64,000 nt of DNA from assembly GCF_001431425.1 (NCBI RefSeq), contig NZ_LDJG01000001.1, forward strand, positions 1-64,000, written 5' to 3'. Source of the stretch: Stenotrophomonas nitritireducens. Its GTDB lineage: Bacteria; Pseudomonadota; Gammaproteobacteria; Xanthomonadales; Xanthomonadaceae. Shown here in pieces: positions 26,035 to 38,789 of the stretch (its first letter is position 1; every line of letters starts with the position of its first letter). The notes under the pieces are model-generated. The model was not told the DNA's origin and searched no databases. It saw nothing but the letters and a program-made list of their open reading frames with translations. The translations under genes and the position numbers were made by a program.

Positions 26035-26049
26035 CTGGCGGAGAGAGGG
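26035..26049. other. attL (duplicated tRNA-Ser 3' end)
   Basis: CTGGCGGAGAGAGGG, the same 15 bases as the 3' end of tRNA-Ser(GGA) at 38696-38710, here without the rest of the tRNA. It lies 161 bp before the integrase start. Confidence 0.85.
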
Positions 26050-26169
26050 ACCGCGCTTGGGTGGTCTTAGCTCATCTCGCTAAGTCTCTATTCTCGCTGT
26101 ACCTGCATGTTTCGGCAAGGAGTTTTCGTCTCGGGTGGTCTCGCCCTCTATCGCTACATCGCTCATTCA

Positions 26170-26180
26170 TAGTAGGGTAG
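26170..26180 (+). repeat. putative integrase arm-type site (left)
   Basis: TAGTAGGGTAG, exactly repeated in direct orientation at 38645-38655 inside the right end. A partial copy TAGTAGG occurs at 38633-38639. Placement 120 bp and 40 bp inside the two att cores suits arm-type integrase binding sites. Confidence 0.5.
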
Positions 26181-26209
26181 GTGGTAGGTTAATACTCGAT
26201 GGGCGCGCC

Positions 26210-27502
26210 ATGCCTCGCAAGGCAAAAGAACTGACAGACATAGCGGTGCGGAACCTGAAGAAGCCCGGATACTACGCTGTGGGTGGGTCTGTCTCGGGCC
26301 TCCTGTTGCAAGTTACCGCGACCGGAGCCCGGAGCTGGGTGCTTCGCTATACCGCCGGTGTGAAACCCGGAACAGGCAAGCCGTGGCGGCGCGATCTTGG
26401 GCTGGGTGGCTATCCCGACGTGTCGCTGTCCGAAGCACGGCGCAAAGCAGCCGAGGCGCGCGAACTGCTGTCAAAGAACATCGACCCGATCACCGCCAAG
26501 CGTGAGGCCCGGAGCGCGATGCTCGCGGCGCGGCTTGCTGAGATCACCTTCGAGAAGGCCGCGCACCAGTTCATCGAGGCCAAGTCCGCTGAATGGAAGT
26601 CGGGCGGCAAGAGTGCCGACCAGTGGACCAGCTCGCTCGAAGCCTATGCCTTTCCGGTGCTGGGCTCGCTCCGCGTCGCCGATATCGACCGGGCGCACGT
26701 CCTGCGCGTCCTTGAGCCAATCTGGACCGACAAAAACGAGACGGCGAACCGGGTGCGCCAGCGCATGGAGTCGGTGTTGGACTGGGCGAAGGTCCGCGGT
26801 TTCCGCGAGGGCGACAACCCGGCGCGCTGGAAGGGCTACCTGGACAAGGTCCTGCCTGCGCCCGGGAAGGTGCGGGACGTGCAACACCATCCGGCGCTTC
26901 CCTATGCCCATATGCAGCCGTTCATGCTGGACCTCCGCACGCGGAATGGCATGGGCGCGCGGGCGCTTGAGTTCGCGATCCTGACCGCGGCCCGGTCGGG
27001 CGAAGCGCGTGGCGCGCGCTGGGACGAAATCGACTTGGATGCGAAGGTCTGGACGGTCCCTCCCGAGCGGATGAAGTCCAGCAAGAAAGAACACCGAGTG
27101 CCGCTCTCGGACGCGGCAATCAACATGCTCAAGGCACTGCCGCGGATCGAGGGAACGGACCTCGTTTTCACGCCGCAGCGTGGCAAGAATCCGCTGTCCG
27201 ACAACACGCTGACGAAGCTGCTGGGCGATATGCACGATGCCAGCGTCAAGCGTGGCGGCGCTGGTTACATCGACCCGAAACAGGGCAAGGTCATCACCGC
27301 GCATGGGTTTCGCTCGACCTTCCGTGACTGGGCATCAGAAGAGACGCACGCTGCACGCGACGTGGTGGAAATGGCGCTGGCTCACACCATAGGCAACAAG
27401 GTCGAAGCCGCCTACCGTCGCGGCGATCTTTTCGAGAAGCGGCGGACACTTATGGCGGAGTGGGCCAGGTTCTGCTCCCCAAAAAGTAAAGTAAGCGACT
27501 GA
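26210..27502 (+). CDS. P4-type tyrosine integrase
   Basis: Site-specific recombinase of 430 residues that would integrate and excise the element at tRNA-Ser. It has an N-terminal DUF4102 arm-binding domain (KAKELTDIAVRNLKKPG...LGLGGYPDVSLSEARRKA, about 5-95), a SAM-like core-binding domain, and a catalytic domain. Its tetrad residues lie in TAARSGEARGARW (Arg), HGFRSTFRDWA (His, Arg) and IGNKVEAAYRRGD (Tyr nucleophile near the C-terminus). The start chosen is the ATG at 26210, immediately before the family N-terminus; an in-frame ATG 25 codons upstream lacks support. The Shine-Dalgarno is weak. It is intact, so the element may be mobile. Confidence 0.93.
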   Translation: MPRKAKELTDIAVRNLKKPGYYAVGGSVSGLLLQVTATGARSWVLRYTAGVKPGTGKPWRRDLGLGGYPDVSLSEARRKAAEARELLSKNIDPITAKREARSAMLAARLAEITFEKAAHQFIEAKSAEWKSGGKSADQWTSSLEAYAFPVLGSLRVADIDRAHVLRVLEPIWTDKNETANRVRQRMESVLDWAKVRGFREGDNPARWKGYLDKVLPAPGKVRDVQHHPALPYAHMQPFMLDLRTRNGMGARALEFAILTAARSGEARGARWDEIDLDAKVWTVPPERMKSSKKEHRVPLSDAAINMLKALPRIEGTDLVFTPQRGKNPLSDNTLTKLLGDMHDASVKRGGAGYIDPKQGKVITAHGFRSTFRDWASEETHAARDVVEMALAHTIGNKVEAAYRRGDLFEKRRTLMAEWARFCSPKSKVSD

Positions 27503-27762
27503 TCTACAAGACTATTTGCTAGACGACGGTCGTCTTACTCGGCTATAGTTCCTCTCGATTGATCGTAGAACGCAGAGGCGAGGGGAGCTGCCCTGAAGGC
27601 GGCTTTTGATCTGCGCGGAGCCAACAAGCCCGCCCGAGCGTTCAAATTTCTCTGCGGGACAGCGAGGAAGCGACAAGAGGTCACCCGTCCGCGGGTGCAT
27701 CGCTTGCGCTGCCTCGTTCTTGTTTCTGGCAGCGCGAGCCATCTGGCTCAGGAACCGCTGTC

Positions 27763-28011
27763 ATGAAGCATCAAACGATCACCTTGCCTGCCTTGAAGCA
27801 GGCTGTCTCCGATGAACTTGCCCGCCGCAAAGAGCGGCGCTATGCCCGTCCGACAGGCGCAGCCCAGTATTTGGGCGTCAGCCTGGCGACACTCTGGCGC
27901 TGGAATGCCGAGCGCGACGACTTCCCAAGGCCGCGCAAGATCGGGCCACGCGCAACCGTGTGGGACCTCAACGAAATCGATGCTTGGCTCGACGCCCAGC
28001 AGGCGAAGTGA
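27763..28011 (+). CDS. AlpA-family/excisionase-like DNA-binding protein
   Basis: Small protein of 82 residues. A MerR/Xis-like winged helix begins at about residue 28: TGAAQYLGVSLATLWRWNAE, followed by FPRPRKIGPRATVWDLNEIDAWL, the AlpA signature in which a basic wing and WDLxEIDxWL occur. AlpA proteins activate integrase expression or act as excisionases in P4-like elements. Its place shortly after the integrase fits that role. The 260-bp gap before it (27503-27762) contains no convincing gene and probably holds its promoter. Confidence 0.78.
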   Translation: MKHQTITLPALKQAVSDELARRKERRYARPTGAAQYLGVSLATLWRWNAERDDFPRPRKIGPRATVWDLNEIDAWLDAQQAK

Positions 28012-28022
28012 GGGCACACGTC

Positions 28023-28433
28023 ATGAGTAATAGCGCAAGTGACGTCCCCGAAATGACGCCGCAGAAGGCACGCGAAGCGGCCAGCCTCGTTTCATACCTG
28101 CTCGTCACCGACGCCGAGAAGTTCATGCGGGAGTTCTTTCCGCAGGGCTTGGAGCCACGCCCGCAGCAAAGTGACTTCAACAACGAGGACCTGCATACCT
28201 ACGACATGACCTGCGGCATGCTGGGTTCGCTGAAGGCGACGCTGCATGAGGTCGATGACGGCACCCCAGAATTCATGGACTACAAGCGCCTGCTCTGGTG
28301 GTGCGACAAGGTCCTTGAAGGTGAAACGTCTTTCCCTTCGCAGCACGCCGCCCAGTGCAACGATGCTTGGGCACGCTGGGCGCGGGTCCGCGGGATCAAG
28401 CGTGGCATCTACCGCGGAGGTCGCCGCGGATGA
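28023..28433 (+). CDS. unknown protein of the element's replication operon
   Basis: 136 residues, acidic, with two Trp-rich stretches (LLWWCDKV; DAWARWARVRG) and a basic C-terminal tail (KRGIYRGGRRG). No family is recognised and there is no signal peptide or membrane segment. It begins 11 bp after the AlpA-like gene, and its stop overlaps the start of the primase-helicase (ATGA), so translation is coupled; a helper of replication is a reasonable but untested idea. Confidence 0.7.
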   Translation: MSNSASDVPEMTPQKAREAASLVSYLLVTDAEKFMREFFPQGLEPRPQQSDFNNEDLHTYDMTCGMLGSLKATLHEVDDGTPEFMDYKRLLWWCDKVLEGETSFPSQHAAQCNDAWARWARVRGIKRGIYRGGRRG

Positions 28434-30793
28434 AGCCGAAGATCGAGCACGACACCCGTGCCGCCATCGAATTCCTCAAGAAGTGGAGCCCGGAAGGGTC
28501 TTGGGTGCTGACCGCGATTGTCCCGGACGGCAAGATTGAGACAACGACGTTCCAGCCCGCGGAGTGGGTCGAAGCGGCCCAGTGGATCGAGGAGCGGCAA
28601 GGCGTCGCCAACCAATACTTCCATGTAAACCCAGTCCGGCGCGAGCTGAAGAACAAAGCCTCCAAGGAGGACGTTGCCGCGCTCGCTTGGCTGCATGTGG
28701 ACATAGACCCGCGTGCAGGCGAAGACATTGCCGAGGAACAGGACCGTGCCCTGCGCCTGCTGCGTGACCACTCGCCGAAGCCAACCGTGATCCTTTTCAG
28801 TGGCGGCGGATACCAAGGTTTCTGGAAGCTCGCACCGGATGACCGGCTGGTCATCGACGGCAACGTGGCGAAGGCGCAGGAACTGGAGGCATACAACGTC
28901 CAGCTCGAAAAAGTCTTTCAGGCAGACCATTGCTCGAACTGCGACAGGATCATGAGGCTGGTCGGGACGGTGAATCTTCCGACAGCCAAGAAGCGCAAGA
29001 AGGGCCGCATGCCTGCACTGGCAACACTGGTCGAATGGGACGATGCCGCCGTCTATTCCATCGACCAGTTCACCCCGGCAGCGAAGGCGACCGCTACGCC
29101 ACCGCGCGCAGCGCGTAGGCAACGGGTGTCCCCGCCGGTGGCCGGAGGTACAGGGGTCGGCGTCGATGAGCTTACGGCGTGGGCGACGGCCAACGGCAAG
29201 ACCATCAAGGAGTCGACGCTGGCCCTGATCGCAACCGGCACGGACCCTATCGACCCGACCAAGTACACCTCACGGTCGGAACCCCTGTTCCGGGTCTGCT
29301 GCGACCTGGTGCGCGCCGACGTGCCGGACGACATGATTTTGGGCGTTATCACTGGGCCGAACGAGATTGCCGCGAGCGTCAGGGACAAGCCGGACTGGAA
29401 GGGCTACGCGCTCCGGCAGATCGAGCGCGCGCACGAGAACGCCGTTGATCCGTGGCTCCTCAAGCTCAATGATCAGCACGCGGTCATCACTTCGGGCAAG
29501 GTTCGCATCGCTGGCTGGCGGCGGACGCACCCCGAGCTGGACCGCGAAGCCCTCGATCTACAGTCGTTCGATGACTTCCGGAACCGCTATCGCAACCAGA
29601 AGGTAATTGTCGGCTTCGCTGAGAACGGCCAGCCGATCCAGAAGGCTGTCGGAAGCTGGTGGATTGACCACCCGCAGCGGCGCGAGTTCGACAATGTGAT
29701 CTTCATTCCCGGCAAGGCCGAGGAGATCAATGGATTCCTGAATCTCTGGCGCGGCTGGGGCGTGGCTCCTGCGCCCGGCGGCGACTGGTCCCTGATGCGC
29801 GAGCATATCCACTTCCTTTGCGGCGGCTCCGACTACGGACTGAAGTGGCTGGCTGACGCGGTGCAGCGTCCGGATCGCCCAGCGGGCGTCGCGCTGATCC
29901 TGCGGGGCAAAGAAGGCACCGGCAAGGGCGTATTTGGTCGCGCAGCCAAGGAGCTTTTTGGGCGGCACGGCCTCCAAGTCACCAACGCGAAACACGTCAC
30001 AGGCAACTTCAACCTTCATCTGCGGGACTGCTGCCTGTTGTTCGCGGACGAAGTGACCACGCATGGCGACAAGACCGCGGACGCAGTGATGAAAACCCTC
30101 ATCACCGAGGACACGCTGGTCATCGAAGGGAAAGGCGCTGACGTGGTCACTGCGCCGAATTACGCCCATATCATCATGGCGTCGAATGAGCGGTGGATTG
30201 TCCCGGCGGGTGCGAACGCCAGGCGCTTTGCAATCTTCGACGTGCCCGACGACCACATGGAGGACTACGCCTATTTTGCGGCCATCGAGAGGCAGCTTTA
30301 CGCCAAGTCACCGAACGGCACGCTGATCCCCGGAGCCGGGCTGGCGGCCATGCTTTACGACCTGATGAAAATGGATCTTGGTGATTGGCGTCCGTCGCAC
30401 AATCTTCCAAAGAACATGGCGCTTTCGGAGCAGAAGGCGCGCAGCCTGCCCGGCCTGTCTGCCTACGTGTTCGACATGCTGCTGACCGGCAACCTCCCAC
30501 CGAACACGGAGGAATCCGGCGGCGTGCCGTGGGTGGCTACGTCGGACCTGCGTGCCGCTGCCGACAACTGGCTGAAGCCACGCAAGGGTGACAACCACTT
30601 TGCCGACAACGACATTCAAATCCTGCTGGCGAAGCGGCTCAAGGCCCGGAAGAAGCGGCGTGGCGGTCGCAACGGCTACTTCCTCGACCTGCAACGCATG
30701 CGCGCCGAATGGGACACCTGCCCCGACTTGTTTACATGGGGTGAATGGCCTGACGATAGCGAGGACGATTCGGACCCGAAGCCGCCGTTCTGA
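28430..30793 (+). CDS. primase-helicase (AEP-like primase plus D5/DUF5906-type SF3 helicase)
   Basis: Replication protein of 787 residues. The N-terminal half resembles archaeo-eukaryotic primases of mobile elements: the metal-binding pair Asp91/Asp93 lies in HVDIDP, and FSGGGYQGFWKL and NCDRIMRLVGTVNLP follow. The C-terminal half is an SF3/DUF5906 ATPase with Walker A GKEGTGKG (Lys499), Walker B-like CCLLFADE, and the sensor IIMASNE. The P4 alpha protein has an analogous primase-helicase combination and also binds origin repeats. The repeat array 0.5 kb downstream is therefore the likely origin. The ATG at 28430 overlaps the previous stop. Confidence 0.85.
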   Translation: MKPKIEHDTRAAIEFLKKWSPEGSWVLTAIVPDGKIETTTFQPAEWVEAAQWIEERQGVANQYFHVNPVRRELKNKASKEDVAALAWLHVDIDPRAGEDIAEEQDRALRLLRDHSPKPTVILFSGGGYQGFWKLAPDDRLVIDGNVAKAQELEAYNVQLEKVFQADHCSNCDRIMRLVGTVNLPTAKKRKKGRMPALATLVEWDDAAVYSIDQFTPAAKATATPPRAARRQRVSPPVAGGTGVGVDELTAWATANGKTIKESTLALIATGTDPIDPTKYTSRSEPLFRVCCDLVRADVPDDMILGVITGPNEIAASVRDKPDWKGYALRQIERAHENAVDPWLLKLNDQHAVITSGKVRIAGWRRTHPELDREALDLQSFDDFRNRYRNQKVIVGFAENGQPIQKAVGSWWIDHPQRREFDNVIFIPGKAEEINGFLNLWRGWGVAPAPGGDWSLMREHIHFLCGGSDYGLKWLADAVQRPDRPAGVALILRGKEGTGKGVFGRAAKELFGRHGLQVTNAKHVTGNFNLHLRDCCLLFADEVTTHGDKTADAVMKTLITEDTLVIEGKGADVVTAPNYAHIIMASNERWIVPAGANARRFAIFDVPDDHMEDYAYFAAIERQLYAKSPNGTLIPGAGLAAMLYDLMKMDLGDWRPSHNLPKNMALSEQKARSLPGLSAYVFDMLLTGNLPPNTEESGGVPWVATSDLRAAADNWLKPRKGDNHFADNDIQILLAKRLKARKKRRGGRNGYFLDLQRMRAEWDTCPDLFTWGEWPDDSEDDSDPKPPF

Positions 30794-30801
30794 GGTCACT
30801 C

Positions 30802-31305
30802 ATGAGCATCCAGCAGGGTTGGCGACAACGTGGATTGCCCCACAAGGGCTGGCGGCTGATCGCCGTGTATGACTCGCGTGATGCGGAGTCGCACGGCGAT
30901 TCACCGCGGTATGAGGTTTGCCAGATGTGCGGCAACGAGCAGGTTCGGTACGTCCATGTCCTGGACCACGATGACGTGGCCGAATCCATCGAAGTCGGCT
31001 GCGTCTGCGCGGAGAACCTCTGCGAGGACTACAGCGATAGCGGGCCGCGTGCCCGCGAGCGTCGGCTGGTCAACCGGGCGGCGCGCCGGAGCAAGTGGCT
31101 CAAGCGCAAGTGGCGGCAGTCTGCGAAGGGCAACGACTTCCTCAACGTCGAGGGAAACAATCTAGGCGTCCACCAGCAGAAGAATGGCCGCTGGGGATAC
31201 CGCATCAACTCCACCTTCAGCGTCACCAGCTATCCAACTGAGGACGCGGCCAAGCTCGCCCTGTTCGACCGACTCTGGCCTGCGGACCCGGAAAGCACGC
31301 AGTAG
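30802..31305 (+). CDS. unknown protein with zinc-ribbon-like cysteines
   Basis: 167 residues. CQMCG (about residue 40) and a later cluster VGCVCAENLC (about 65-74) could bind zinc. This is followed by a strongly basic segment (RRLVNRAARRSKWLKRKWRQS) and a segment rich in Gly/Asn/Tyr (NGRWGYRINSTFSVTSYPT) that resembles a small beta-sheet domain. It lies 8 bp after the primase-helicase and just before the repeat array; DNA binding at the origin is a guess. No family recognised. Confidence 0.7.
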   Translation: MSIQQGWRQRGLPHKGWRLIAVYDSRDAESHGDSPRYEVCQMCGNEQVRYVHVLDHDDVAESIEVGCVCAENLCEDYSDSGPRARERRLVNRAARRSKWLKRKWRQSAKGNDFLNVEGNNLGVHQQKNGRWGYRINSTFSVTSYPTEDAAKLALFDRLWPADPESTQ

Positions 31306-31318
31306 TGCGCCGATCCGG

Positions 31319-31629
31319 CTGACCTAGCCGACCTCATACTGACCTCCGCGATGAGGTCAGCCTGTTCTAGGCCCAGTAATCCGTGGGCTTTAGCTGACCT
31401 AGCTGACCTAGCTGGCCTTTTCGTGCGTACTTGCCCGAGAAAATCTCGGCGGTGTGCCTGCTGGCAGAAGGCCCAGAGGTGCAGCGTCGGAGCGTCGCTG
31501 ACCGCCGCAATTTCTCTTTCTCCTCCTAAAAGGTCAGAAAGGTCAGCTAGGTCAGCCGAAACCCAGTAACGGATGGGGCTCCCGACTAGCTGACCTCGCG
31601 CTGACCTCGCTGGGCGGTCAGCTAGGTCA
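31319..31629. repeat. iteron-like TGACCT/AGGTCA array, putative replication origin
   Basis: The gene-free stretch 31306-31840 holds 11 exact TGACCT or AGGTCA hexamers and three one-mismatch variants. Three groups are phased at 9 bp: 31395/31404/31413 (TGACCT direction), 31531/31540/31549 (AGGTCA) and 31615/31624 (AGGTCA). Groups face each other across a segment containing the pyrimidine-rich tract TTTCTCTTTCTCCTCC (31511-31526). Position behind a primase-helicase suggests an origin; operator or centromere sites are the alternatives. The rest, up to 31828, shows nothing else clear. Confidence 0.65.
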
Positions 31630-31840
31630 GCTAGTGCGACGCCGACGCTCCTCTGGGCAGGAGGCAGCGCACCGCCCCTCACATACAAGATCCATCCAAT
31701 CTGAAATCGGGTCCGGAAACCCACTTCCGGCACCCCACGATTTTCCAACTCGCTGATCCCAGTGAATTTTTATCCGTTCGCGGCCCTTTTCGGATGCGTG
31801 CCGGCCAGTTATGGTCTCGCCGTCTCACAGGAGATTGAGA

Positions 31841-32443
31841 ATGGCTCGCGTAGCCCTGTACGTCCGGGTGTCCACCCACAAGGACCAGACCGTTGAAAAC
31901 CAGTTGATCGCGCTGCGGGAGTGGGCCCGGGCCAGCGGCCACACCATCGCCGCTGAGTTCGCCGACGAAGGCATCAGCGGCGCGAAGGGTCGCGACAAGC
32001 GCCCGGCGCTGGACGCGATGCTCAAGGCCGCCACGCGCCGCGAGGTGGATATGGTCGCGGTGACGGCGCTGGACCGGCTGGGCCGTAGCCTGCCGCACCT
32101 CGTGTCGTTGGTCGCCGAGCTGGAAGCCCTGCGGGTCGGGCTGTTCGTTCGCAACCTCGCGATGGACACCTCCACGCCCGCCGGGCGGCTGATGTTCAAC
32201 GTGATGGGTTCGCTCGCCGAGTTCGAGCGCGAGCTGATCCGGGAGCGCACGCTACTGGGCCTAGAACGTGCCCGGCGGCAAGGGAAGAAGCTCGGCAGGC
32301 CGAAGGTGCCGCCCGGGGTCGAACACCGCATAGCGGCACTCCTAGAGGCAGGGACCCCCGCCAACCGCGTCGCCCGCATGACCTGCGTGGGGAACGCCGC
32401 CGTCTATCGCATCAAGCGGGAGCTGGAAGCATGTCGCGCCTGA
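31841..32443 (+). CDS. serine recombinase (resolvase/invertase family)
   Basis: Recombinase of 200 residues. The catalytic domain has the nucleophile Ser11 (YVRVSTHKDQ), ALDRLGRS and the E-helix region AEFERELIRERTLLGLERAR. The C-terminal helix-turn-helix is short (AALLEAGTPANRVARMTCVGNAAVYRIKRE). AGGAG 8 bases before the ATG supports the start. It is complete. It may resolve dimers, invert a segment, or be a second integration system; no inverted-repeat target was found nearby. It overlaps the next gene by 13 bp. Confidence 0.92.
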   Translation: MARVALYVRVSTHKDQTVENQLIALREWARASGHTIAAEFADEGISGAKGRDKRPALDAMLKAATRREVDMVAVTALDRLGRSLPHLVSLVAELEALRVGLFVRNLAMDTSTPAGRLMFNVMGSLAEFERELIRERTLLGLERARRQGKKLGRPKVPPGVEHRIAALLEAGTPANRVARMTCVGNAAVYRIKRELEACRA

Positions 32444-32850
32444 CCTTGCCCGACCTCACGACAAAGGCCATCGACGCAGCCCGCCTCCTCGCGCAGGAGG
32501 GATGCCGGGAACACACTATCCGCCGTGCCCTGGGCCTGACCGTGCCGCAGTGGAAGGCTCTCAAGGAGGACACCGAGGCGGGCGAGTTGTCGCCACTGGC
32601 GCTGGCCTTGGAGGAAGGCCGCGCCGAAGGTGCCGGGGACATCATCGCCTTCATGAAGAAGCGCATGGGCGAAGGCAGCGAGCGCGCCGCCGAGTTCCTC
32701 GCCGACCGGGTATTCCAGCTTGGCCGCGGCGACGGCAACGCCGACGTGCCGAGGGTCGCGATCTTCATCCAAGCCGCCATGTCGCCCGATGAGTACGCGC
32801 GCGTGATCGCCGTCCAGCAGCAGCCGGGAGTCCTGACCCATGAGCGTTGA
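32431..32850 (+). CDS. putative terminase small subunit
   Basis: 139 residues. A helix-turn-helix-like N-terminal part (LLAQEGCREHTIRRALGLTVPQWKALKED) is followed by a helical region (LEEGRAEGAGDIIAFMKKRM). The type and order of segments, and the position directly before and overlapping (11 bp) the large terminase gene, suggest the DNA-recognition subunit of a packaging terminase. Direct sequence similarity is weak, so the call rests mainly on context. Confidence 0.6.
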   Translation: MSRLTLPDLTTKAIDAARLLAQEGCREHTIRRALGLTVPQWKALKEDTEAGELSPLALALEEGRAEGAGDIIAFMKKRMGEGSERAAEFLADRVFQLGRGDGNADVPRVAIFIQAAMSPDEYARVIAVQQQPGVLTHER

Positions 32851-34228
32851 GATTCGCCCGACGCCGTTCCAGTCGCAGGTCCTGACCGTGCCCGAGGATC
32901 ACTTCATGTTCTTGGGTGGTGGTCGCGGTGGCGGGAAGTCGATGGCCGTGCAGTTCCTGATCCTGCGCCATTGCGACCAATACAAGAGCCGCGCCCGGGT
33001 CCTTGTGACCCGCCGCCGCTTGAAGTCCTTGGGCCAGTTTGCCGAGGAACTGCGCCAGCTTCTGCGCTCTGCCTACGGGCGCGACATTGCCTACAACCAG
33101 AACGATGCGATGTTCCGCTTGCCGAACGGGGCGACGATCCAGCTCACGCACGTTGAATCGGCATCGGCTCTGTCCGACGTGGCGCAAGGTATGTCCTACA
33201 CTTTGATCGCGTGCGATGAGGCGGGCGAAGGTCCCTCCATCGAGGTCATCGACCAGCTCGGCATGAGCCTTCGCGGTAACGGCACGCCGCTCCGGCTCGT
33301 GCTCGCCGGAAATCCTGGAGGCCAAAATCACGGCGCGCTCGCCGAGCGGTACGTGACGGGTCGCGAGCCGTGGGTGCCGTTCGAGTTCGAGGGCAATACG
33401 TGGGTCTATGCGCCGTCGCGTCTCGATGACAACCCGTATCTGCCGGAGGCATACCGGCGGAACTTTGAGGTCTTGGCCCGCACCGACCCGGCCTTGTACC
33501 GCGCGATGCGCTTGGGCGACTGGTCCGCACTGGTCGGTGATTTCTTCCAAGGAATATGGAACGCGGACAAGATGGTCATCGACCATCACGACGTGCCGCT
33601 GGATTGCTTCGCCTCGCTCAAGCTCTCCATCGACTGGGGCAGCGCCGCGCCGTGTGCGACGGTCCTTGTCGGGCAGCTCGCCTATGCCGTGCGCCTGCCG
33701 GATGATCGCGTGATGCCGCGGGGCGCGTGGGTGGTGTTCGATGAGCACGCCGAATGCGATCCGCGGAACATTTCCCGTGGTACGGGCCGCACCCCGGGCC
33801 AGATTGCGCCGTCGCTACATGCGATGGCCGCGCGCAACGGTGTCCGGGCGCGTGGGGTGATCGACTCCGCCGCCGAGGCGCGGCAGATGGGCCGGGCGGA
33901 GGCGTCTATCGCCGACCTGTTCCGTGAGGCCGGGGTGCGCGTCTCGCCCGCCAAAAAGGGCGCGCGTGTCCCACGTTTCGAGCATCTAAAGCAGCTCATG
34001 GTGAACGGCGAGTTCTTTGTCGCGTCACGGTGCCGCATGTGGCTGGCGACGGTCCCGAGCCTGCCGCGCGATTCGCGCGTTCCGGATGACTGCGACAGCG
34101 CGGCAAATGACCACATGCTCGACGCGACCAGCTACGGCATCGCGGGCGAGTCCGGCGGGCGTGTCCACCAGCGCGGGTTCCTGCCCGAAGCGCGGATGCC
34201 GCGCGAGGAACGGATTGTTTGGATTTGA
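32840..34228 (+). CDS. terL: phage terminase large subunit
   Basis: DNA-packaging motor ATPase/nuclease of 462 residues. Walker A is GGGRGGGKS (residues 26-34), Walker B is LIACDEAGEG (about 118-127) and the coupling motif follows in LAGNPGG. The RNase H-like nuclease domain begins at LSIDWGSAAPC (first Asp), with a middle acidic GVIDSAAEA and a last acidic AANDHMLDATSYG. All appear intact. It is notable because the element has no recognisable portal or capsid; a satellite could use it to redirect packaging into helper heads. Confidence 0.9.
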   Translation: MSVEIRPTPFQSQVLTVPEDHFMFLGGGRGGGKSMAVQFLILRHCDQYKSRARVLVTRRRLKSLGQFAEELRQLLRSAYGRDIAYNQNDAMFRLPNGATIQLTHVESASALSDVAQGMSYTLIACDEAGEGPSIEVIDQLGMSLRGNGTPLRLVLAGNPGGQNHGALAERYVTGREPWVPFEFEGNTWVYAPSRLDDNPYLPEAYRRNFEVLARTDPALYRAMRLGDWSALVGDFFQGIWNADKMVIDHHDVPLDCFASLKLSIDWGSAAPCATVLVGQLAYAVRLPDDRVMPRGAWVVFDEHAECDPRNISRGTGRTPGQIAPSLHAMAARNGVRARGVIDSAAEARQMGRAEASIADLFREAGVRVSPAKKGARVPRFEHLKQLMVNGEFFVASRCRMWLATVPSLPRDSRVPDDCDSAANDHMLDATSYGIAGESGGRVHQRGFLPEARMPREERIVWI

Positions 34229-34242
34229 TGGGAGAAATGGCG

Positions 34243-34545
34243 ATGAAGCGTTCCTACAAGTACCTGATGCTGGCCCTCGTGATCGGCAACGCGCAGGCGG
34301 CGCAGCGCGAATTGTTCAACGCCCGCGAGACGTTGGAGCGGGCGAAGGTCGGCACCTACTCGCCGCGCGCGCAGCCGCCGGTTCGCGTGGAGGTGGAGCA
34401 GCCCGCGCGGTTTCGCGCGACGGGCCACGGAAACCGCCAGATTCAACAACGATTCGAGCGGATGGACTGCCGTTGGCAGGACGCCACGAATTCCATGCGC
34501 TGCGTGCCGTTTCCAGCCGAAGAAGTAAACCGACCCAAGAAATAA
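34243..34545 (+). CDS. small exported or membrane-associated protein, unknown
   Basis: 100 residues. The N-terminus MKRSYKYLMLALVIGNAQAAQ looks like a signal peptide with cleavage after AQA. The rest is basic and Gln/Arg-rich, with two cysteines (MDCRWQ; MRCVPF) that could form a disulfide in the periplasm. The start at 34243 is favoured by GGAG at spacing 8; an ATG six bases upstream is too close to it. It begins 14 bp after terL. No family recognised. Confidence 0.6.
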   Translation: MKRSYKYLMLALVIGNAQAAQRELFNARETLERAKVGTYSPRAQPPVRVEVEQPARFRATGHGNRQIQQRFERMDCRWQDATNSMRCVPFPAEEVNRPKK

Positions 34546-34627
34546 CACTCGCGCGGGGCAAATCCGGTCCATATGGTCGGGAGCGAGCGGCTCCACTGGC
34601 TGGGCCGCACGCTGAGGAATAGCCCCC

Positions 34628-35386
34628 ATGCCCAACGTCAACTTCAAGACCATCCCCACCGATGTTCCGCTGACCGTGGAGAACATCGACCGGCTCGCGA
34701 ATCGCGCCGCCGAACTCGCCACCGCCTTCGGTGCGCGCATCGCCAACATCCAGCAGCAGGTCGCTGACGCCCGCGACCGTTTCAGCCGCGACGGTGACGA
34801 CCTTGTCCGTGAGACGGACGCCGCCAATCGCGCCGTTGCCAAGCAATTCGCACGTCGCCAGCTCGCCTCGCGCATCGCCAAGTTCCGTCTGACCATCGTG
34901 GAATCGAGCCGTGGCCAGCGCGAAGAACTCCTGCGCCCGCTGGCGAAGGTCGCCGCCGATGCCGCGTTCCTCCTGACCCTGTGCCAGTCGCCCGCGCAGA
35001 TGCTCGGGCGCGTTGCTTTGGGCGATGCCCGGCGCACGCAGTACCAGATGCAGCTCGAAGGCGCAGGCCCGGTCGAGCTGGAAACCGCCGCGATCACCGC
35101 GATTGCCACCGGGGACATGCCTCTGGCTGCCGCGGTCGCGACCGTGGTAGACCGCCGCCCTTCGGATCGCCGTCCGTTCTCGGTGGCGGCGTTTGCCGAG
35201 AGGGTGTGGGGTGCGCAGCACGCCGAGGTCACGGCCAAGCTCAAGGGCGTCCTGCTGGCCGAGCGTACCGCGCGCGCGGCCAATGACGAGTTTGTGCGCG
35301 GCAAGGCCGACCCCATCGCCAACCTGAGCAACCAGCTCGCCGCCCGGGCCATCGCCGAGGCGTCGGGCGAGGAGGACGAAGCATGA
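34628..35386 (+). CDS. Ala-rich helical protein, unknown
   Basis: 252 residues, predicted almost wholly alpha-helical with long Ala/Arg/Leu/Glu stretches (RLANRAAELATAFGARIANI; AVAKQFARRQLASRIAKF) and no membrane segment. Homology is not recognised. It lies after terL where tailed phages encode portal or scaffolding proteins, but no portal or scaffold motif can be seen. Its stop overlaps the next start (ATGA). Confidence 0.65.
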   Translation: MPNVNFKTIPTDVPLTVENIDRLANRAAELATAFGARIANIQQQVADARDRFSRDGDDLVRETDAANRAVAKQFARRQLASRIAKFRLTIVESSRGQREELLRPLAKVAADAAFLLTLCQSPAQMLGRVALGDARRTQYQMQLEGAGPVELETAAITAIATGDMPLAAAVATVVDRRPSDRRPFSVAAFAERVWGAQHAEVTAKLKGVLLAERTARAANDEFVRGKADPIANLSNQLAARAIAEASGEEDEA

Positions 35387-35505
35387 AAGGCGCGGTTCCC
35401 AACGTCCGGAAGGCCAAGGCCATCCACGAGAAGAAGCAGGCCGAGCGCAACGCCACGGCCAACAAGATGAAGAAGCGCGCGGCGACCACTCGCCGCGGTC
35501 GCTGA
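35383..35505 (+). CDS. very small basic protein (40 residues)
   Basis: 40 codons from ATG 35383 to TGA 35505: MKGAVPNVRKAKAIHEKKQA, then a Lys/Arg-rich remainder ending TTRRGR; about a third of the residues are Lys or Arg. Evidence that it is real: the ATGA overlap with the preceding stop, the same G+C codon style, and lack of any alternative gene here. It could bind nucleic acid; function unknown. Confidence 0.55.
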   Translation: MKGAVPNVRKAKAIHEKKQAERNATANKMKKRAATTRRGR

Positions 35506-35526
35506 TCGAATCGGGGTGTCCCGGCG

Positions 35527-35970
35527 GTGACGTATCGCGCCCGCCTCGTGCCGCCGAGGCACCCTGACCAACCAGCGACCCCCGGCGCGGACGGGAACGA
35601 CGGTGACGGGGCGACCGCGCCGGGGGAAGCTGCCTCGCGACAGGCAACCGCGACGCGCGAGGCAATGGCCCGCCTATGGGCTGATCCTGACTACCGCGCA
35701 CGCATGTCCGCGCAGATGAAGGCCAGGTGGGCGGACCCTGCTTACCGGAAGCGGGCCGCAGGCAACAATCGCGACGAACGCGCCTACCGTTGGCAGCACA
35801 TCGAGTCCGGGCGGATCGTCTCCCGGACCAAGCTCGAAATGCGCGAGGAACACGGCTTGCGTCCCGATTCACTGGACGGCCTCGTGGCTGGGCGCATCCA
35901 GACCTCGCGGGGCTGGCGGCTCGCGCCGCGGTCGCTGCTGGGCGAGGGGCCGCGGTGGATCTTTCCGTGA
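35527..35970 (+). CDS. NUMOD-motif DNA-binding protein without nuclease domain
   Basis: 147 residues from a GTG. After a disordered Pro/Gly/Asp-rich N-terminus there are two tandem copies of a short helical motif (REAMARLWADPDYRARM and SAQMKARWADPAYRKR) of the NUMOD3 type found in homing endonucleases. Then comes a NUMOD1-like segment (HIESGRIVSRTKLEMREEHG...SRGWRL). No GIY-YIG, HNH or LAGLIDADG catalytic core is visible. It ends 4 bp before the convergent NADAR gene. Confidence 0.6.
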   Translation: MTYRARLVPPRHPDQPATPGADGNDGDGATAPGEAASRQATATREAMARLWADPDYRARMSAQMKARWADPAYRKRAAGNNRDERAYRWQHIESGRIVSRTKLEMREEHGLRPDSLDGLVAGRIQTSRGWRLAPRSLLGEGPRWIFP

Positions 35971-35974
35971 TGGG

Positions 35975-36634
35975 CTAGAGCAGAGGCGGCTGCTCGCCCA
36001 GTTCCTGAGGCTCGTCGCTGGAAACGGTGGTTCCCGGCGCTCCAATCGCTTCGATGGGCTCGCCGTAGAGCGAGAAGTTCGGAATCCGCAGCGGCGGCAC
36101 GAACCGAAGTTGCTCGTCAGTGTCTTTTTTCAACGCCTCTCTAAGCTCCATGAGGAGGCGGCCGAGTACATTTTCGCCCATCAACGTTTCGCCGTCCTGC
36201 AGGAGGATTGCGCCCCAGTACTCGTCCTTTCTCGACTGCTCAACGATGGACTTTTCCTTGGTGGCGAGGAGTAGGCGACCAAACTCCTTGTAATGCTGTG
36301 CGAGCTTCACTCTCAAGCACCAGCGCATCACATTGTGGCGCACTTTGTCCCAGTCGCTACGGGTTGCCTTCCTGTGGGGCTTCCCCTTCATCTTCGCGGT
36401 CATGGGGCTATGTTGAGCAATGATCTCTCGCTGCACATCGGGCAGGTCGGGGAATCGACATGCTTGGTAGAGCGCCTCACTTGTCGGAATCCTGAACCCG
36501 TTTATGCGGAGGGGGAAACCCGCGGCCATATTGGACAAGCCGCCGAAAGCCTCCTTGGTCTTGTGAACGACGACAGACTCCGCGCGCACATACGTACGGA
36601 GTCTTGCGTTGGGTTCAGAGTTCGTCAAAGTCAT
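35975..36634 (-). CDS. NADAR-family protein (YbiA-like ADP-ribosyl/N-glycosidase)
   Basis: 219 residues. The NADAR pattern is clear: FGGLSNMAAGFPLRINGFRI, TSEALYQACRFP, the basic middle (KMKGKPHRKATRSDW), MRWCLRVKLAQH, LLATKEKSIVEQSRKDEYWG and GENVLGRLLMELR. NADAR proteins hydrolyse N-glycosidic bonds; YbiA acts on riboflavin intermediates, and others remove ADP-ribose from guanine as antitoxins to DarT-type toxins. The start (36634) overlaps the upstream phosphoribosyltransferase-like gene by 20 bp, so it is the last gene of a three-gene minus-strand operon. Base composition is visibly more A+T-rich than the phage genes. Antitoxin or effector role is inference. Confidence 0.85.
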   Translation of the reverse strand: MTLTNSEPNARLRTYVRAESVVVHKTKEAFGGLSNMAAGFPLRINGFRIPTSEALYQACRFPDLPDVQREIIAQHSPMTAKMKGKPHRKATRSDWDKVRHNVMRWCLRVKLAQHYKEFGRLLLATKEKSIVEQSRKDEYWGAILLQDGETLMGENVLGRLLMELREALKKDTDEQLRFVPPLRIPNFSLYGEPIEAIGAPGTTVSSDEPQELGEQPPLL

Positions 36635-37655
36635 TGAACACGTTTTCTGCCGATGCGTATGTCTTGCGCTGAAACAGTGGGTACCAATGCAATGCCCCTG
36701 AGTCATCGTCGGGATTGCCCCACCACATAGCTAGGGGGCAATTGTTTGGGCAATTGCGGTGCGTGACGATAGTTGATCCGAATCCTACTCCGAAGCTGCC
36801 GCATCCGAGTGGGCGGTAGAAGTCGAGTAAGTTCTGCGCCAAGGACCTGATCTTTACTCCCGCAATGAGAAATTCCTGTTCAAGGAGGTTCCTTCCTGCC
36901 TCAGAAGAGAATATCCCTAGAGTTCCAAGGTTTCCTGCGGTCCGGAGCTGAACTTGTTGAGTCGCTACGTAGGCTTGTACCGCTGCATCGTTCGGGATTG
37001 AGGTGGGCCACAGAACGTCGGAAGTGTTCTTGGAGTAGAGTCGATTCTCGAAATTGAACAGCCTCCAGAAAGTTATGCGAATGTTCTTTCCTGAGCGGGC
37101 TATCGCTTCGCGTAGCTTTCTCGATTCGATGTAGTAATGGCCGCTTGTATGCAGGGCAATTGTGATCACCTTGACTACAGCATTGTTTGGTGCGGGACCC
37201 TCTATCCAAGCGGTCAAATCGGTCGAGATTCGTCCTCCGGTAAACAAGACGTCATCAAGGTAGATGAATTCTCCCTGCGGGCTTCCTGAGCGCGTGATAT
37301 CAAGACCCAGCCTTTCGGCAAGCCTTTCTCCCATTAGTGAAACCATTTGTTTCTGGCTCTGGCCTCGCCTCTGGATTTTGAGGAAGTTTGCGTTGGCCCA
37401 ATACACGCCCGGGTTCGATCCGGCGAGAGCGGTGTTCGTCAGAAGGCCGTCTAGGAACTGGACAAAATTATCTTTGGTTATGAATGTCTGCTTGATTACG
37501 TGATTGAACTCGCGAAGAAACGCAACTTGATTCGCTGGCGTGAACTGACTCGCCCATCGGTCTACGTGCTCTGGTGTTGGCTGAGCTATTTCGCCTTCGC
37601 GATACGTCTTGATCTCGTTTGCGATTGAAACAAGAAGGTCCCTTCTCTCGCTCAT
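36615..37655 (-). CDS. phosphoribosyltransferase-fold protein of a conflict system (PRTase-CE-like)
   Basis: 346 residues. The PRPP-binding loop is present: FIYLDDVLFTGGR at residues 130-142, matching the hydrophobic-hydrophobic-DD-x4-TG pattern of type I PRTases. The C-terminal signature GSFGVGFGSTIVTHRNCPNNCP...WWG is the feature I associate with PRTase-like proteins of prokaryotic conflict systems (some occur in retrons). A ribosome site GGGGGAG precedes the ATG. It follows the DinD-like gene by 25 bp and overlaps the NADAR gene. It carries many rarer A/T-ending codons, unlike neighbours. Substrate unknown; the pairing with a ribosyl-bond hydrolase is suggestive. Confidence 0.75.
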   Translation of the reverse strand: MSERRDLLVSIANEIKTYREGEIAQPTPEHVDRWASQFTPANQVAFLREFNHVIKQTFITKDNFVQFLDGLLTNTALAGSNPGVYWANANFLKIQRRGQSQKQMVSLMGERLAERLGLDITRSGSPQGEFIYLDDVLFTGGRISTDLTAWIEGPAPNNAVVKVITIALHTSGHYYIESRKLREAIARSGKNIRITFWRLFNFENRLYSKNTSDVLWPTSIPNDAAVQAYVATQQVQLRTAGNLGTLGIFSSEAGRNLLEQEFLIAGVKIRSLAQNLLDFYRPLGCGSFGVGFGSTIVTHRNCPNNCPLAMWWGNPDDDSGALHWYPLFQRKTYASAENVFNDFDEL

Positions 37656-37680
37656 CTTCGCTCCCCCTGTAGAGCACTAT

Positions 37681-38508
37681 TTATGGCTTCTTCTTGGCTT
37701 TCGGTTTGTCCAGCTTTTTCATTTCACGGTCAACTTTCTTGAGGCGCTTCTGGACGCCCTGAACGTCCTCCTCAATAGCGAGGTGCTCAGGCGCGGTGCC
37801 GCTGTTCTGAATCATCATGCGGCGCACTTCGCTGCCTACGTCTTGTGCGGTGCGCTGTAGGCTGTTCAGCCCGCTGACGTTCTTGCTCTTGATTCGGGCT
37901 GCTGTCTGCGTCACGCGGAACAGGTTGCCGGCAAGCTCTTCCAACCCCATGAAGTCATACAAGGTCTTGCCTTGTGGCATCCCCTTGTGGGCTTGGAGGT
38001 CGCGCAGACTCATGTTGTACATGCCACGGAAGCCGGCGTCCTTGAAGATGCCGAACTCGGTGGTCTGCAGTCCACCGTCGCGGGCTGCCCCGGTCATGGC
38101 CTTCTCGGCAATCTTGAGGTCCTCACGAGTTTCGAGACGAGCGAGGTCCGCAGATTCGACGCGCTGTTGGATGAGGGTGTCTGCGATGGCGGCAAGTGCG
38201 GCCTTGGCTTCCGCGACCTCCGGCTTCTTCGAGTCGGCGGTCATCGAGACCAGCAGGCACGCAAACCGAGTGAGCCGATACGTCTTGACGGTTTTCCCGC
38301 CTTCGATCACTTCTTCGCGGGTGAACGCTTCGGTCGGATCGAGCCCAAGGCGAGTACAGGACCCCATCGCCTTGGTGATAACGCCTTGGAACGACTGCCA
38401 AGAGTCGTACCCGAGCCAGCCCATGAGCTGATGGGCGTACCAGAAGCGGGAATCGCCGCCGTCGTGGGCGCTATCCTCGAATGCCTGAAGCGAGAAGTTT
38501 GTCGTCAT
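37681..38508 (-). CDS. DinD/BRO-N family protein
   Basis: 275 residues, the size of E. coli DinD (274). An N-terminal BRO-like domain (RFWYAHQLMGWLGYDSWQSF...YRLTRFACLLVSM) precedes the conserved block TEFGIFKDAGFRGMYNMSLRDLQ, LYDFMGLEELAGNLFRVTQT and DVGSEVRRMM, all found in DinD. The C-terminus is Lys-rich (KLDKPKAKKKP). DinD is DNA-damage inducible and interferes with RecA filaments in E. coli; BRO-N domains bind DNA. It heads the operon with the PRTase-like and NADAR genes. A TATGAT -10-like sequence lies about 30 bp upstream. Confidence 0.85.
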   Translation of the reverse strand: MTTNFSLQAFEDSAHDGGDSRFWYAHQLMGWLGYDSWQSFQGVITKAMGSCTRLGLDPTEAFTREEVIEGGKTVKTYRLTRFACLLVSMTADSKKPEVAEAKAALAAIADTLIQQRVESADLARLETREDLKIAEKAMTGAARDGGLQTTEFGIFKDAGFRGMYNMSLRDLQAHKGMPQGKTLYDFMGLEELAGNLFRVTQTAARIKSKNVSGLNSLQRTAQDVGSEVRRMMIQNSGTAPEHLAIEEDVQGVQKRLKKVDREMKKLDKPKAKKKP

Positions 38509-38575
38509 CGGTTTGCTGCCATATATGCTGAATGCATCATAGGACAGCGCCCACGAACTCGCAGCGGCAGGGCAA

Positions 38576-38608
38576 CAAAAAGGCCACCTCGACGGGTGGC
38601 CTTTTTGC
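38576..38608. terminator. bidirectional terminator near the right end of the element
   Basis: AAAAAGGCCACC/GGTGGCCTTTTT stem with loop TCGAC(G). Flanking A and T runs allow function on both strands. It isolates the element from the tRNA-Ser transcript. Confidence 0.85.
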
Positions 38609-38644
38609 CCACCTAGCCCAGCACATCAGGCGTAGTAGGTATTT

Positions 38645-38655
38645 TAGTAGGGTAG
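38645..38655 (+). repeat. putative integrase arm-type site (right)
   Basis: TAGTAGGGTAG, direct repeat of 26170-26180; lies 41 bp inside the right att core. Confidence 0.5.
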
Positions 38656-38695
38656 TTCCGGAACTGCTTGGCCGGAGCCACTACCTATTGGATAA

Positions 38696-38710
38696 CTGGC
38701 GGAGAGAGGG
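38696..38710. other. attR core within tRNA-Ser 3' end
   Basis: CTGGCGGAGAGAGGG, identical to 26035-26049. It covers the CCA end and acceptor strand of the minus-strand tRNA, so integration keeps the tRNA functional. Confidence 0.85.
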
Positions 38711-38789
38711 GGATTCGAACCCCCGAAGCGCGGTTTAGACGCTTACACACTTTCCAGGCGTGCTCCTTCAACCACTCGGACACCTCTCC
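38697..38789 (-). tRNA. tRNA-Ser (GGA)
   Basis: 93-nt class II tRNA on the minus strand with encoded CCA. Acceptor GGAGAGG/TCTCTCC (one G-U pair), anticodon GGA between CACGC and GTGTG, variable arm GCGTCTAAACCGCGC. It is the integration target of the element. Confidence 0.97.

Follow-up and report, generated by a model that had tools for sequence, protein, structure and literature searches.

Does a compact, A+T-rich operon at the end of an integrated element in Stenotrophomonas nitritireducens encode one three-gene defence system, or a smaller system with an extra gene beside it? The operon occupies positions 35975-38508 of a 64,000-nucleotide stretch of DNA (contig NZ_LDJG01000001.1, positions 1 to 64,000 of the forward strand; the whole of this stretch is called the window here), and an earlier note had read it as a candidate defence or conflict operon made up of a DinD/BRO-N gene, a phosphoribosyltransferase (PRTase)-fold gene and a NADAR gene, a trio for which it knew of no described system. 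Judged by profile scores and gene order, the second and third genes almost certainly form an anti-phage pair of the DS-32 type, and the DinD-like gene lies outside that pair. The features of the operon are as follows (PRPP, phosphoribosyl pyrophosphate; pLDDT, predicted local distance difference test).

37681-38508, minus strand: DinD-like gene, 275 aa, first in the apparent operon and outside the conserved pair (PADLOC PDC-S13, 1.4e-77)
36615-37655, minus strand: PRTase-like protein DS32_1, 346 aa (NF053875, 386.7 bits; PF24390, 4e-51)
37230-37268, minus strand: codons of the presumed PRPP loop, PRTase residues 130-142 (FIYLDDVLFTGGR), with residues invariant in alignments
35975-36634, minus strand: NADAR protein DS32_2, 219 aa (NF053876, 284.3 bits; PF08719, 8.7e-28)
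35978-35992, minus strand: final five NADAR codons (QPPLL), a beta-clamp-binding-like motif in a disordered tail (pattern and low pLDDT)
38577-38606, no strand assigned: terminator-like hairpin with flanking A/T runs upstream of the DinD-like gene (by eye; absent from the list of the terminator scan)

Identity of the pair

Both proteins exceed the cut-offs of the NCBIfam equivalog models that carry the DS-32 name: 250 bits for NF053875 ('DS32_1_antiphage'), passed by the PRTase, and 240 bits for NF053876 ('DS32_2_antiphage'), passed by the NADAR. The domain assignments are PRTase-CE (PF24390) and NADAR (PF08719), the latter protein also giving a weak match to PADLOC PDC-M42C, and the PRTase gene is directly followed by the NADAR gene with a 20-bp overlap, as the DS-32 order requires. 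The DS-nn names denote 42 systems validated in the DefensePredictor screen, published in 2026, as described in the available text of PMC13092281. An E. coli pair that also passes both cut-offs belongs to a lambdoid prophage, where replication protein P lies to one side of it and ybcN/ninE to the other, and shares gene order, strand and mobile setting with the pair of the window, which differs in having a DinD-like gene 25 bp upstream and in residing in a satellite-like element instead of a lambdoid prophage. When a Klebsiella pair was used as blastn query, 62 of 5426 E. coli genomes matched over 22% of the query; the matches fall in the NADAR gene in the 20 rows listed, and both loci examined also have the PRTase. 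That no system had been described thus holds for the trio, as far as searched, and fails for the pair, which has equivalog models of its own; likewise the reading as a defence operon stands for the PRTase and NADAR genes and falls for the trio.

The layout given in the earlier note was borne out throughout. The three minus-strand open reading frames (ORFs) are 37681-38508 (275 aa), 36615-37655 (346 aa) and 35975-36706; the last is open to 36706, and an internal ATG at 36634 was picked as the NADAR start for its fit to relatives, giving 219 aa. The gap between the DinD-like and PRTase genes is 25 bp, and the PRTase and NADAR genes overlap by 20 bp if the NADAR starts at 36634 and by 92 bp if it starts at 36706. 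All three genes are richer in A+T than their surroundings (G+C of 0.594, 0.513 and 0.579 in operon order; 0.644 in the remainder of the element; 0.686 and 0.698 in the measured flanks), lie at the tRNA end of the element and oppose its plus-strand genes. A scan of the operon found no sigma-70-like site, where shuffled sequence gave 1.2, and one terminator-like site, where it gave 3.7. Inspection by eye of the region upstream of the DinD-like gene showed no SOS box of the E. coli type, no systematic LexA-box search having been made.

Conservation of the pair and the DinD-like gene

Outside the window, the neighbourhood survey covered 48 PRTase loci, of which viral contigs supplied 33 and genomes, plasmid records and E. 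coli the other 15; L007, L008 and L025, whose weak PRTase matches did not reach the cut-off, were left out of the counts. The 48 loci include many near-copies, and the 49 NADARs (that of the window included) form 23 clusters at 80% identity. NADAR follows PRTase in the same direction in all 48 loci. A DinD profile match occurs in none of the 48 (four of which, L067, L068, L092 and L098, have less than 0.5 kb upstream of the PRTase), and within the stretch fetched neither PRTase nor NADAR occurs in the best 80 of 300 viral DinD loci; five DinD loci from genomes have neither gene either. Among relatives' genomes, a DS-32 PRTase scores above the cut-off in 5 of 298 and DinD matches in 10 of 199, and of those with matches only the genome of the window (G000) is in both lists. 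These results count against the co-occurrence of the three genes that the earlier note had envisaged, and the trio as a conserved system is ruled out by the 0 of 48, the 0 of the best 80 of 300 and the sole genome overlap.

In wider draws, with the genome of the window counted in each, the PRTase is above the cut-off in 4 of 369 genomes of the class and 3 of 398 of the phylum; it matches 0 of 50,697 phage records and 3 of 72,556 plasmid records. A search of genome contigs with a single-sequence query gave one PRTase relative, and 48 genomes from the class of genome G723 gave only two PRTase loci, both previously known. DinD is absent also from two PRTase contigs found later (L132 and L157), in the second of which the NADAR is split over two frames.

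DinD has a connection with RecA. The label DinD/BRO-N proposed for the first gene survives in part: the protein is DinD-like, and reaches the cut-off neither of NF008573 (178.4 against 242 bits) nor of Bro-N (18.2 against 25.6 bits). Because the NF008573 score lies under its cut-off, 'DinD-like' is the proper wording. The protein also matches a 717-position PADLOC model for type I specificity proteins over its first part (3.9e-29), a match that hints at fusions of DinD to HsdS. Elsewhere, DinD genes lie between BrxC-like and Eco57I-type methylase genes in a BREX-like setting (L055, 6787-7647), between ResIII and N6/N4-methylase genes in a type III-like setting (L058, 5997-6827), beside an N6/N4-methylase gene (L059, 6157-6999) and next to a glycerol-phosphate acyltransferase gene (L056). 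DinD may thus be an addition that methylation-based defence has picked up repeatedly. In the window, the DinD-like gene takes the position that HsdM or the HmaA-like helicase has in other pair loci, and it may have a local role.

PRTase fold and NADAR active site

The AlphaFold2 model of the PRTase (pLDDT 88.1; predicted template modelling score 0.88) has a PRTase fold, as the earlier note had supposed, and this is of type I, the best structural match being a uracil PRTase (1o5o; Z 9.5, root-mean-square deviation 3.2, 123 residues aligned). Of the 50 listed fold matches, 46 have titles that refer to a PRTase, to PyrR, to PRPP synthetase or to an associated protein, and the titles of the other four (1v9s, 1ufr, 2e55, 7rh8) mention no enzyme. 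The matches found by Foldseek on its own were weak (best E 1.6e-3), and a sequence search of the PDB with the PRTase profile gave nothing usable (best E 0.12). The loop FIYLDDVLFTGGR (DD..F.G), which we take to be the PRPP loop, has Y132, D134, D135, F138 and G140 invariant in alignments of 15 and 23 sequences, and the protein should bind PRPP. PRTase-like proteins also occur in defence in retron III-A and in DprA-PRTase systems (PMC12548924 and PMC9122126, as far as their available text describes them), and the PRTase of the window weakly matches PADLOC PRTase_III-A (5.5e-6); the window differs in having a NADAR and, among the neighbours scanned, no reverse transcriptase, DprA or winged-helix partner. 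A retron was rejected as a candidate, no reverse transcriptase having been found among the element proteins scanned.

The NADAR fold resembles YbiA and an ADP-ribose (ADPr)-bound NADAR by structure comparison. In the numbering of the ADPr-bound protein, the equivalents of E43, E125 and W133 are kept in all 49 DS-32 NADARs, and the equivalent of K50 is Arg in all 49. All 19 controls have Lys at this position; they are what is left of a set of 21 NADARs of relatives outside DS-32 once the partial or truncated L117 and L122 are removed. The equivalents of Lys95 and Asp171 of the DarT1-linked NADAR are likewise Arg and Glu in 49 of 49. According to the available text of PMC11543638, K50 contacts the pyrophosphate of ADPr in a solved structure, and a Lys to Arg change in the DarT1-linked NADAR left activity in vitro but abolished rescue in cells. 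The switch to Arg would fit a different arrangement of phosphate in the substrate, for example ribose 5-phosphate.

DarTG1 (DarT1-NADAR), on the evidence of that same text, is similar in combining a transferase with a NADAR that retains the E43-equivalent glutamate. The DS-32 partner, however, is PRTase-like and not an ADP-ribosyltransferase, and the DS-32 NADAR has a clamp-like tail, Arg in place of the essential Lys and Glu (the YbiA type) in place of Asp171. DarTG1 membership was rejected on the partner (PRTase-CE, type I PRTase fold) and on the residues (Arg and Glu in 49 of 49).

NADAR joined to DNA-modifying subunits in relatives

In nine of the 48 loci (L016, L017, L020, L021, L071, L072, L074, L077 and L092, of which L071 and L092 are identical in NADAR) the NADAR frame continues without a stop into a part resembling HsdS, the specificity subunit, within type I restriction operons of the order hsdM-PRTase-NADAR::HsdS-hsdR. 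Pfam Methylase_S matches seven of the eight distinct fused proteins; that of L020 has no match, yet aligns with the others over most of its length. All nine have HsdR nearby and eight have HsdM, the contig of the remaining locus beginning inside the PRTase, and in L017, L020, L071 and L077 the HsdM gene overlaps the PRTase start by 4 bp. In the other 39 loci no match to HsdM, HsdS or HsdR was found in the stretch examined.

Hma is a helicase-methylase-ATPase system, for which PADLOC models HmaA, HmaB and HmaC. In L028, L029 and L132 (the last outside the 48) the pair lies between HmaA-like and HmaB-like genes, HmaA being the best match of the gene upstream of the PRTase in L028 and L132, and the gene of L029 being 95% identical to that of L028. 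In L132 the NADAR is fused to a DUF1156/HmaB-like DNA methylase, after which comes an HmaC-like gene; the HmaB-like methylase of L028 and L029 is a separate ORF. The operon of the window differs in having no gene of the Hma kind. Across these 12 loci the NADAR is thus fused to (10) or directly before (2) a DNA-marking subunit. In a PRTase tree of 33 rows, the eight type I rows require four context changes, at least three of them forced by well-supported branches, from which it follows that the pair has entered or left methylation-based systems more than once; the copy of the window falls in a supported set of five stand-alone copies.

The position between hsdM and the PRTase also hosts other genes: GmrSD-like genes in L072 (3163-4956; 99% identical in L074), and SIR2-like and HerA genes in L016 (1408-4937). 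In L020 (2997-5105, minus strand) the HsdS part of the fusion consists of two halves that appear near-identical by eye, and a palindromic target site would be expected from this. A literature search for a NADAR-specificity subunit or NADAR-HsdS fusion found none described, as judged by titles and the beginnings of abstracts among the matches listed, and one for NADAR with restriction-modification (R-M) did not find the wiring of the pair in print among the matches listed. For DUF4326, the available text of PMC7824862 describes fusions to NADAR and, independently of these, fusions to components of replication or of R-M.

The NADAR tail

In the NADAR model, residues from about 37 to 220 are predicted with confidence and the chain after them is disordered, with tail blocks of pLDDT 46-58. 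In published clamp-binding motifs (Q-L-x-L-F, with Q at position 1 and hydrophobic residues at 4 and 5, PMC4549789; QAMSLF in the clamp-loader delta subunit, PMC2705854; each as given in the available text) a glutamine is followed by a hydrophobic end. The forms Q-x-x-[LMIF]-[FL] or Q-x-x-x-L-F occur in the tails or HsdS linkers of 16 of the 23 clusters. Shuffled tails gave 0.75 clusters on average and never more than 6 in 20,000 trials, a comparison that flatters the pattern because the pattern was broadened from the published forms after the tails had been seen. The tail of the window matches the wider pattern with its C-terminal QPPLL, in a region of low pLDDT. None of the 19 control NADARs, whose tails have 0-16 residues, has the pattern, but this control set is narrow because 12 of its members come from the genus of the window and are not independent. 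From its tail, the NADAR may bind the sliding clamp; a literature search for NADAR with the sliding clamp found nothing on such docking by title among the matches listed.

Some NADARs depart from this picture. L076 (5987-7036) has a 164-residue charged tail in place of the clamp pattern. Two large viral contigs of 485 kb and 177 kb carry DS-32-like NADARs that score 231.8 and 190.3 bits on NF053876 (both below 240), lack the clamp pattern and have no PRTase in the stretch (L136, 6031-6663, and L156, 6004-6609), and a contig of 103 kb (L158) has a weaker NADAR of this sort. Those of L136 and L156 are candidate phage-borne antidotes to DS-32; the antitoxin mimic described in the available text of PMC11481870 is a different one, and the idea of a phage NADAR mimic stays a lead.

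Proposed mechanism and alternatives

The membership of the pair, the conserved active sites, the fusions and the tail pattern are supported by the sequences themselves. From them we infer DNA as the substrate, a phosphoribosyl mark, clamp binding, the directions of the two reactions and a trigger. Because a PRPP-dependent transferase adjoins an N-glycosidase whose relatives remove ADP-ribose from guanine, the writing and erasing of a phosphoribosyl mark is suggested, and because the NADAR is fused to HsdS or a methylase and has a clamp-like tail, DNA at replication or methylation is pointed to. The PRTase would spend PRPP to place a 5-phosphoribosyl adduct on a DNA nucleobase, and the adduct would stop replication; the NADAR would be the reversing enzyme (the antitoxin), cutting the N-glycosidic bond of the adduct. 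Docked by its C-terminal tail on the host sliding clamp, or in some relatives joined to the subunit with which a restriction-type system reads or methylates DNA, the NADAR would clean host DNA in the course of copying or marking. Phage DNA would go without cleaning, and be blocked, when a phage replisome copies it or when the infection occupies the clamp or the restriction complex. A pairing of ribosyl transfer with a controlling hydrolase, as put forward in the earlier note, would be the most likely mechanism. The account as a whole (a DS-32-type pair, an extra DinD-like gene, satellite-like cargo, and a phosphoribosyl mark on DNA with a clamp-docked eraser) is given a probability of roughly 0.35. 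Taken as a statement about DS-32 itself, the proposal of reversible DNA phosphoribosylation, erased by a clamp-bound or HsdS/methylase-fused NADAR and telling self from non-self by the replisome, is tentative and on the whole unlikely.

Several observations weigh against this proposal, besides the late widening of the tail pattern and the narrow controls. The tail of the window ends in LL, not LF; the pattern is absent in 7 of the 23 clusters (L013, L019, L028, L070, L075, L076 and L079), LF being kept and Q gone in L028, L070 and L075, and with the later-found L127 and L132, also without Q, the count becomes 16 of 25. The genome of the window has no HsdM_N or Methylase_S match (9 of 14 control genomes matched per search; other kinds of methylase were not searched for), and a type I partner in trans was rejected on this result. 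A NADAR-HsdS fusion could instead regulate the restriction enzyme, in which case DNA need not be the substrate. The NADAR of the window also scores above the cut-off of TIGR02464, the model for the YbiA-type riboflavin-intermediate N-glycosidase (86.3 bits, cut-off 73.7), which those of E. coli (71.0), L077 (73.3), L028 (71.8) and L132 (69.2) just miss; a small-molecule substrate would be compatible with this match. Finally, the main text of PMC13092281, so far as available, has a PRTase in its Fig. 4 and mentions NADAR domains but does not print 'DS-32', and DS-32 is therefore linked to the DefensePredictor screen through its NCBIfam name.

Chief among the rivals is a guard of the PrrC kind, in which the PRTase would be a dormant toxin directed at tRNA, a nucleotide pool or a protein; a NADAR tethered to the clamp or the restriction complex would silence it, and phage attack on that complex would release it. 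PrrC lies in a type I operon, is sequestered by the restriction enzyme and is freed on T4 infection (PMC3874165 and PMC2610378, in their available text), and the pair occupies a like place in the nine NADAR::HsdS loci. Relative to PrrC-EcoprrI (PMC3874165, likewise), the resemblance of a defence gene inside a type I R-M operon thus extends to nine relatives and not to the window, and these relatives have another class of enzyme and an extra domain fused to HsdS. The 39 copies with no Hsd match argue against such a guard, as do the catalytic glutamates kept in 49 of 49 NADARs, which is more than a tether requires; the guard is somewhat less probable than the main proposal.

More doubtful is a scheme of serial effectors, in which the PRTase attaches phosphoribose to a small molecule or depletes PRPP and the NADAR cleaves a nucleotide or intermediate, no mark on nucleic acid being reversed. 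The PRTase fold is nearest to small-molecule enzymes (uracil PRTase, PyrR), and the TIGR02464 match agrees with such a role; DNA is indicated instead by the clamp-like tail and by the fusions that join NADAR to HsdS and to a DNA methylase. It is improbable that the roles are swapped, with the NADAR a DNA N-glycosylase sent to phage DNA by the clamp or HsdS and the PRTase marking host DNA or supplying a protective base: NADARs do cut N-glycosidic bonds, and HsdS, a reader of specific sequences, is fused to NADAR in nine loci, but the catalytic residues match enzymes that remove ADP-ribose from guanine, not bases from deoxyribose, and the PRTase-less NADARs of the two large viral contigs suit an antidote better than a weapon. 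That DinD, PRTase and NADAR form a single three-gene system in this lineage, with DinD sensing recombination filaments, is very improbable, since the 25-bp spacing, the common strand, the HsdM or HmaA-like helicase that fills the DinD slot upstream of the PRTase in other pair loci and the DinD genes within BREX-like and type III-like operons are set against the 0 of 48 pair loci, the 0 of the best 80 of 300 viral DinD loci, the presence of G000 alone in both lists and an E. coli pair with no DinD among the annotated genes of its 12-kb stretch.

The integrated element

The operon is the tRNA-end cargo of an integrated element, whose other features are as follows.

26035-38710, no strand assigned: integrated element with the operon, 12.7 kb (empty site in L038, genome G012)
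26035-26049, plus strand: attL core, 15 bp (identical to 38696-38710)
38696-38710, plus strand: attR core, 3' end of tRNA-Ser(GGA) (identical to the attL core)
38697-38789, minus strand: tRNA-Ser (GGA), integration target (ARAGORN)
26135-27502, plus strand: tyrosine integrase (PF00589, PF22022, PF13356)
27763-28011, plus strand: AlpA-type regulator (PF05930, 1.1e-8)
28355-30793, plus strand: primase-like replication protein (PHROG 1829 DNA primase, 2.3e-79; PF19263)
31811-32443, plus strand: serine resolvase (PF00239, 3.1e-44)
32840-34228, plus strand: large terminase subunit (PHROG 2, 2.8e-26; PF04466)

The window was aligned against five stretches of the same genus (L038-L042). L038 is an empty site, its left homology stopping at 26049 and its right starting at 38696 with a 15-bp overlap (the shared core), and because the flank homologies meet at this core the element is about 12.7 kb long. 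In L039 and L042 the right flank likewise starts from 38696, yet lies kilobases away from the left flank; in L040 and L041 a right-flank match is absent within the stretch compared. The element, integrated in tRNA-Ser, carries an integrase, AlpA, primase, resolvase and large terminase, no capsid gene was matched among its proteins scanned with Pfam and PHROG (several ORFs being without family), and it may be of the phage-satellite kind. By position, 32431-32850 is a possible small terminase (no Pfam or PHROG family match); 34628-35386 has no Pfam or PHROG match, and 35527-35970 has a weak PHROG match only. An 11-base direct repeat, TAGTAGGGTAG, lies just inside both element ends (26170 and 38645), a possible integrase arm site.

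Meaning of the pair

Because the pair is known and the trio incidental, the locus of the window is ordinary in its identity. The anti-phage name that NCBIfam gives the pair goes back to a published screen in E. coli, and no mechanism for it was found in the available text of PMC13092281. What appears to be new lies in the relatives, in the Lys to Arg switch at the K50 equivalent, in the fusions to HsdS or a methylase and in the clamp-like tail, the last two being a wiring not found in print among the matches listed; fusions and tail tie the pair to DNA and give a specific, testable mechanism. If the adduct is indeed a phosphoribosyl group on DNA, it would be a DNA modification outside the known ADP-ribosylation chemistry, and if the NADAR does dock on the clamp, this would be a new way of sparing host DNA and a new kind of self-marking.

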